Assembly (NCBI RefSeq): GCF_001753165.1
Contig: NZ_CP017448.1
Location: 1,630,462 to 1,694,461 of the forward strand
Length of the DNA stretch: 64,000 bases
Direction: 5' to 3'
Source of the DNA: Acidihalobacter aeolianus
Lineage (GTDB): Bacteria; Pseudomonadota; Gammaproteobacteria; DSM-5130; Acidihalobacteraceae
Part shown: positions 9,240 to 9,284 of the stretch, piece by piece
Layout of the letters: each line of letters starts with the position of its first letter
Position numbering within the stretch: the stretch's first letter is position 1
Program-made: the position numbers and the translations under genes
Notes under the pieces: model-generated
What the model was told of the DNA's origin: nothing
Database searches by the model: none
Seen by the model: the letters and a program-made list of their open reading frames with translations, nothing else

Positions 9240-9284
9240 ATGGGGTTCAGGCGGTCGGAGGTTCAAATCCTCTCGCCCCGACCA
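9240..9284 (+). other. tRNA-Pro(GGG) 3' fragment, attachment site
   Basis: The sequence contains the loop ATGGGGT with anticodon GGG, the 3' anticodon strand TCAGG, a T-arm (GGAGG-TTCAAAT-CCTCT), the 3' acceptor strand CGCCCCG, discriminator A and CCA. The 5' half is absent: the bases before 9240 do not pair as an anticodon stem, and no D-arm or acceptor strand precedes them. A copy from the anticodon loop to CCA is the classic footprint of integration into a tRNA gene. The intact tRNA-Pro should lie beyond the left edge. Confidence 0.85.

Follow-up and report, generated by a model that had tools for sequence, protein, structure and literature searches.

The 3′ end of a tRNA-Pro(GGG) gene in Acidihalobacter aeolianus is occupied by a 10.7-kb element, bounded by the whole tRNA at the left and by a displaced 3′ part of it at the right. 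Inside lie genes resembling Replic_Relax and KfrA, palindromes, and two CRISPR units that each pair a leader with an array; no cas gene was recognised among the ORFs scanned. The same module recurs behind a dissimilar integrase in a sister element (element 2) at tRNA-Ser. The anatomy is that of an ordinary tRNA-integrated island, but the cargo is unusual. Probably, the orphan arrays of this integrative element formerly relied on a host type III CRISPR system that has since decayed.

An element in the 3′ end of tRNA-Pro(GGG)

The window (the whole stretch of 64,000 nucleotides analysed) corresponds to C1:1630462-1694461. C1 (3,363,634 bases) is one of the two contigs of the genome (the other, 162,484; total, 3,526,118). 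Positions in the stretch L005, which reaches beyond the left end of the window, become window positions on subtraction of 8462. The features within the window are as follows.

1..230, minus strand: start-proximal part of an excisionase-like ORF (132 aa, L005 8294-8692; PHROG 66 excisionase, E 3.4e-5)
260..1557, minus strand: insertion sequence copy 1, with a DUF772/DDE transposase at 407-1498 and a 4-bp target duplication TTAG (Pfam; ends)
1763..2941, minus strand: Replic_Relax-like protein, 392 aa (50% identity over 331 columns to the element 2 protein)
3632..4242, plus strand: KfrA-like gene with a frameshift near 4057-4066 (KfrA_N PF11740, E 1.1e-18)
4332..4377, no strand: palindromic cluster with TTACGTAA motifs (repeat search; same cluster in element 2)
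4378..4560, plus strand: leader of array A1 (175/180 columns equal to the element 2 leader, 168/180 to the A2 leader)
4561..4952, plus strand: CRISPR array A1 (5 repeats of 37 nt, 5 spacers of 34 nt, degenerate last repeat from 4916)
4978..5012, plus strand: terminator-like hairpin and T run after A1 (by eye; absent from the consensus scan list)
5175..5510, plus strand: small ORF, 111 aa (no match in Pfam, PADLOC or NCBIfam)
5513..5694, plus strand: leader of array A2, the second leader copy of the element (94% over 220 nt to the A1 copy)
5695..7317, plus strand: CRISPR array A2 (4 repeats, 4 spacers of 33-35 nt, degenerate last repeat at 7281-7317)
5792..7089, plus strand: insertion sequence copy 2 inside an A2 repeat, with a transposase at 5851-6942 (Pfam) and a 4-bp target duplication TTAA
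7337..8991, minus strand: third insertion sequence, with a DDE_Tnp_1_4 transposase at 7540-8883 (PF13701, E 2.2e-27) and terminal inverted repeats
8998..9021, no strand: terminator-like hairpin, probably once behind A2 (minus strand in the scan list; A/T-rich on both sides, plus-strand reading by eye)
9239..9285, plus strand: right attachment site, 3′ part of tRNA-Pro(GGG) (46/47 nt equal to the intact copy; next best 25/47)
9355..9384, plus strand: terminator-like hairpin with a T-rich tail, in the chromosomal flank (consensus scan: 13 pairs, 8 of them G-C)

The half-tRNA itself is textbook biology. A first-pass annotation had placed a tRNA-Pro(GGG) half-gene at 9240-9284, beginning at the anticodon loop and keeping T arm, acceptor and CCA. 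This is confirmed, one base wider on each side (47 nt), the displaced copy comprising anticodon loop, 3′ anticodon stem, variable loop, T arm, 3′ acceptor strand and CCA (arms named by eye). The sole difference from the intact gene is T to C, in the variable loop, and the two copies lie 10,697 bp apart, start to start. A search of the genome with window positions 9150-9300 finds two places, the window itself and C1:1629003-1629049; a 25-base half-tRNA pattern with up to 2 mismatches finds the same two (backwards control, 0). At the level of sequence, a chance match is excluded because the 47-mer, compared ungapped on the plus strand with the rest of the window, next matches at only 25/47 bases. 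Neither ARAGORN nor Rfam (at gathering score) calls a tRNA in the window. The 5′ half is therefore missing, in agreement with the earlier remark that the bases before the half-gene do not form a tRNA. The terminator hairpin reported at 9355 is likewise present, though lone matches of this kind are weak evidence, terminator-like sites in 4200-9500 numbering 9 against 5.3 expected from shuffles.

The role of the half-tRNA as right attachment site of an integrated element is supported, and the left end holds what the first-pass annotation had predicted for it; the CRISPR cargo and the sister element at tRNA-Ser were not foreseen there. An intact tRNA-Pro(GGG) lies left of position 1, at C1:1628972-1629048 (L005 6973-7049), ending 1,414 bp before the window. 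Beginning 40 bp beyond it is the expected tyrosine integrase, an ORF of 461 aa (L005 7089-8474, minus strand) with a Phage_integrase domain (Pfam, 50.6 bits; cut-off 27.1). The excisionase-like ORF, also foreseen at the end opposite the half-gene, overlaps the integrase end and extends into the window; its better match is PHROG 13517 (unknown function, E 2.1e-26), and it has no Pfam match up to E 1. The integrase adjoining tRNA-Pro would have made the insertion, by recombination at the tRNA 3′ end.

A congener of the same genus, G002, has the tRNA-Pro site without the element. Its tRNA-Pro (L068 10122-10198) equals the intact tRNA here at 77/77 bases, whereas the half-tRNA differs at one base. 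In G002, the match to the PAS-GGDEF gene, which lies here to the right of the half-tRNA, starts at L068 10698, at most 0.5 kb from that tRNA, and the genes of the left flank keep the same order. Because tRNA-Pro and the PAS-GGDEF gene are adjacent there and the left genes are syntenic, the 10.7 kb represent extra DNA. Between the tRNA and the GGDEF gene, divergence is too great for the right flanks to be aligned base by base. The tRNA and the GGDEF gene occur together in one of four relatives searched (G002); G001 and G004 have the right-flank gene, but the stretches fetched from them (12.0 and 11.5 kb) contain no tRNA, and G003 gave no match. G+C content is 57.9% inside the element versus 62.5% in window 9301-64000. 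Collectively, the features found are those of a tRNA-integrated island: an intact tRNA with a 3′ direct repeat, an adjacent integrase and an empty site in a relative.

Cargo of the two elements

Across A1, A2 and the element 2 array, repeats are 37 nt and spacers 33-36 nt long, and the 17 spacers (9 in the tRNA-Pro element, 8 in element 2) are all different. A degenerate last repeat closes 3/3 arrays. A terminator-like hairpin follows each of them (by eye for A1 and element 2); the probable one of A2 is separated from its array by the third insertion sequence. The hallmarks of CRISPR arrays are thus found: exact repeats, different spacers of near-constant length, a leader and a degenerate last repeat. 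Within 3 mismatches, the repeat occurs at 16 places in the genome, 8 in the tRNA-Pro element and 8 at C1:1840078-1840611. The repeats fold into two hairpins as RNA, with z-scores (-1.0, -1.0 and -1.7) that give no support beyond composition. A search of the A1 and element 2 arrays against the genome returned, besides the arrays and a remnant beside cas1, only weak matches (E >=0.013), and self-targeting was rejected.

Of the element ORFs scanned with PADLOC, none matches a cas model; the other matches are weak coiled-coil ones for KfrA and one of IstB to an ATPase model. A search of the whole genome covered PF01867, PF03787 and PF10040. RAMP (PF03787) and Cas6 (PF10040) have 0 matches in this genome, the two models matching only 4/14 and 2/14 control genomes. 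A type IV or V-M plasmid system and a CRISPR transposon were considered and dropped, no effector or Tn7-like gene being present among the scanned ORFs: the Pfam search of the ORFs finds no Tn7-like transposase with TniQ, and the element has a tyrosine integrase instead.

The Replic_Relax-like protein of the window has no significant Pfam match of its own; its element 2 counterpart scores 26.2 bits with PF13814, just over the cut-off of 25.3. The frameshift divides the KfrA-like gene into two pieces, which are 98% identical to the intact KfrA of element 2, and the palindromic cluster behind it is a possible KfrA-binding site. Insertion sequence copy 2 splits the second repeat of A2. It is inverted relative to copy 1 and identical to it (1298 bp, 0/1298 differences), and the different 4-bp target duplications of the two copies suggest recent transposition.

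The putative second element spans L022 8736-16801 (C1:1839735-1847800) at tRNA-Ser(CGA). A 20-bp exact direct repeat marks its ends, L022 8736-8755 being equal to the 3′ end of tRNA-Ser(CGA) at 16782-16801. An IS21-type pair interrupts the integrase, whose N-terminal part is DUF6538; its similarity to the integrase at tRNA-Pro is confined to a local match of 35 residues (40% identity, E 7e-4). The module consists of Replic_Relax, a whole KfrA, palindromes, leader and array, directly joined. The array has 8 identical repeats and 8 spacers, plus a degenerate repeat, and its leader equals that of A2 in 166/180 columns.

Relatives of KfrA are absent from the viral contigs and from the genome contigs searched (0 in each). 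Plasmids yield 10 records, all distant (<60% identity), and KfrA occurs in 17/185 genomes of relatives, this one included, with 29% as the best identity outside it. At the distant-KfrA loci scanned by script (about 1.9-3.6 kb each), the repeat appears only at the loci of this genome. Replic_Relax has 5 plasmid records (26-29% identity), none covering 80%. The repeat itself has 0 matches in viral contigs and occurs in 1/185 genomes of relatives, namely this one, in collections that may omit records near this genome. The sole stretch among the genome contigs, in an Ardenticatenia MAG (L046 1200-1300), carries a similar repeat, with both ends in common with the repeats here, and a second, degenerate copy. 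A third KfrA-like gene (36% identity) lies from C1:302518 onward (L045 1501-2097), with palindromes downstream and, beside it, an ORF that by eye looks like a replication initiator; the surrounding 17-kb stretch (L058) has no CRISPR-like repeats. In the literature searched, which lacks most subscription journals, no account of the element or of CRISPR arrays in Acidihalobacter was recognised, and no description was found of a Replic_Relax-KfrA-leader-array module repeated under different integrases.

One spacer has a recognised target. Exact 21-nt pieces from 6 of the 17 spacers were sought in viral contigs; 5/6 seeds have no match, and the sixth, taken from spacer 2 of element 2, hits 4 contigs, of which three resemble one another in this region. 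The first 25 of its 34 nt match (27/34 overall), within an ORF assigned to exonuclease (PHROG 149, E 5.2e-42). Read backwards, the spacer translates as HKAQVQGQLWV, compared with WQVQGQLWV in the phage. An 88% alignment with the exonuclease gene of Xanthomonas phages (E 0.6) is not significant alone. Type III systems need a guide antisense to the transcript, and the guide from this spacer would be antisense to the exonuclease transcript in the matched contigs, an orientation that, in one case, has an even chance. The other spacer alignments to phage records are at chance level, as are three matches of A2 to plasmids, where A1 and element 2 have none; these phage and plasmid searches covered the spacers other than A2-1.

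A decayed chromosomal locus and competing explanations

Cas1 is found at one place in the genome, with TAG and TAA inside. It lies at L024 11029-11733, cut on its N-terminal side by an insertion sequence, and is overlapped by a reverse transcriptase (L024 10112-11041) that is apparently frameshifted near its end (by eye). The whole remnant (L024 9498-11733, C1:1555497-1557732) is chromosomal and lies 73 kb left of tRNA-Pro, outside both elements. It includes a repeat remnant at C1:1555497-1555522, matching in 26/27 columns (E 0.0147 and 5.7e-4 in two array searches), 0.6 kb from the broken reverse transcriptase and 1.5 kb from the truncated Cas1, and followed by a hairpin. The putative link between the arrays and Cas1 runs through this one short degenerate repeat. 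A short ORF nearby (L024 13537-13842) matches a piece of type I restriction enzyme models and is perhaps the remnant of another defence gene.

Relatives of this Cas1 occur in 46/185 genomes, including this one, and are absent from the congeners G001 and G002. Of eight such loci fetched, four have arrays (by script), three with repeats ending GGGATTAAGAC and one with GGGATTGAGAC. A scan of two of the eight for cas genes found Cas10/Cmr (type III-B) at L087 and type III-D genes at L088, loci whose repeats end GGGATTAAGAC and GGGATTGAGAC; at L088, Cas1 and reverse transcriptase overlap in the same order as in the remnant here. The likely former partner is therefore a type III system whose adaptation module combines Cas1 with a reverse transcriptase. 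Such a host system would have filled and read the arrays in trans, and the element would thereby have given its carrier RNA-guided immunity against phages. Some RT-Cas1 type III systems can take spacers from RNA, according to the abstract of PMC5576922. The arrays are probably inactive in this strain now, because the cas1/reverse transcriptase locus has decayed and the element is damaged by insertion sequences.

It is possible, though on balance improbable, that the element once had a complete CRISPR-Cas locus and lost its cas genes through deletion and insertion-sequence damage, the arrays being mere relics never used in trans. The heavy damage (two identical insertion sequences, a third, and a frameshifted KfrA) fits such a history, and orphan arrays are often explained as decay remnants in passages of PMC9071438. 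However, the sister element has the same cas-less joined module despite a different history and integrase, and it is less likely that two separate losses would have produced an identical join; moreover, the nearest cas remnant belongs to the chromosome.

More tentatively, and as a proposal that we hold to be doubtful, Replic_Relax, KfrA, palindromes, leader and array may constitute a single mobile cassette that has passed from one integrase and tRNA site to another. It would carry immune memory only, use the type III Cas1-RT machinery of any host, perhaps with KfrA bound next to the leader and so controlling the array, and outlive the host cas locus.

Present use of the arrays, with an overlooked effector (such as a type I or class 2 protein encoded at another place in the genome, or Replic_Relax/KfrA acting with RNA), is unlikely. 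The search of the whole genome covered three cas families, the 8 repeats of element 2 are identical and the leaders are conserved, all of which would suit current activity. Yet the sole cas1 is broken, the scanned ORFs of the element lack a cas match in PADLOC, and both the 3′ handle of the repeat and the relatives of Cas1 indicate type III, whose RAMP family gave no match in the genome. It is very unlikely that the repeats are iterons or a KfrA partition site rather than CRISPR. They do adjoin kfrA and palindromes on a plasmid-like module, and palindromes also occur near the third KfrA, but the 17-kb surroundings of that gene lack such repeats; besides, spacer lengths vary from 33 to 36 while repeats are exact, a leader and a degenerate end repeat are present, one spacer matches a phage gene and a similar repeat lies beside cas1 and the reverse transcriptase. 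Scarcely credible is an origin of the half-tRNA by duplication or as a captured tRNA piece: such pieces can arise otherwise, for instance as CRISPR spacers (passages of PMC9897764), but here an integrase lies beside the intact copy, two copies bound the element and a congener has the empty site.

If the reading as an integrative element with formerly host-served arrays is true, this is a chromosomal integrative element with CRISPR memory and no machinery, present in two versions within a single genome, where a decayed host locus also has the repeat. One could then ask whether bacterial immune memory moves independently of the immune machinery, and whether elements retain arrays to compete with phages on their own behalf.

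Comparison with known systems

Cas-less arrays on mobile elements are known, and use of host Cas proteins has been proposed or shown (passages of PMC9071438, PMC6858448 and PMC11656645). In its ends, the element resembles the islands that target tRNA genes, with a whole tRNA at one end, the 3′ part at the other and the integrase beside the whole tRNA; PYG1 of Pyrococcus yayanosii has the same anatomy, with 44-bp repeats (as described in parts of PMC9897764). It differs from them in its small size (10.7 kb), in its cargo of CRISPR arrays and in having no conjugation or relaxase gene among the ORFs searched with Pfam. RT-associated type III CRISPR-Cas systems share the repeat end and the Cas1-RT order as at L088, whereas here only broken cas1 and reverse transcriptase genes and one repeat copy remain.

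The mini-CRISPR arrays borne by the viruses SPV1 and SPV2 are also preceded by a leader, lack cas genes and have repeats like those of the host. They are viral, hold 1-2 spacers and are aimed at sister viruses (both descriptions from passages of PMC6858448). The arrays here hold 4-8 spacers, and the one recognised target is an exonuclease gene of tailed-phage type. Orphan plasmid arrays are likewise cas-less and lie beside plasmid-type genes; passages of PMC9071438 give 207 such arrays among 17,828 non-redundant plasmids and suggest that they work in trans with the Cas proteins of the host. In contrast, the arrays described here are chromosomal and occur in two elements of a single genome that differ in integrase; they have leaders, and a decayed locus in the chromosome carries the same repeat.
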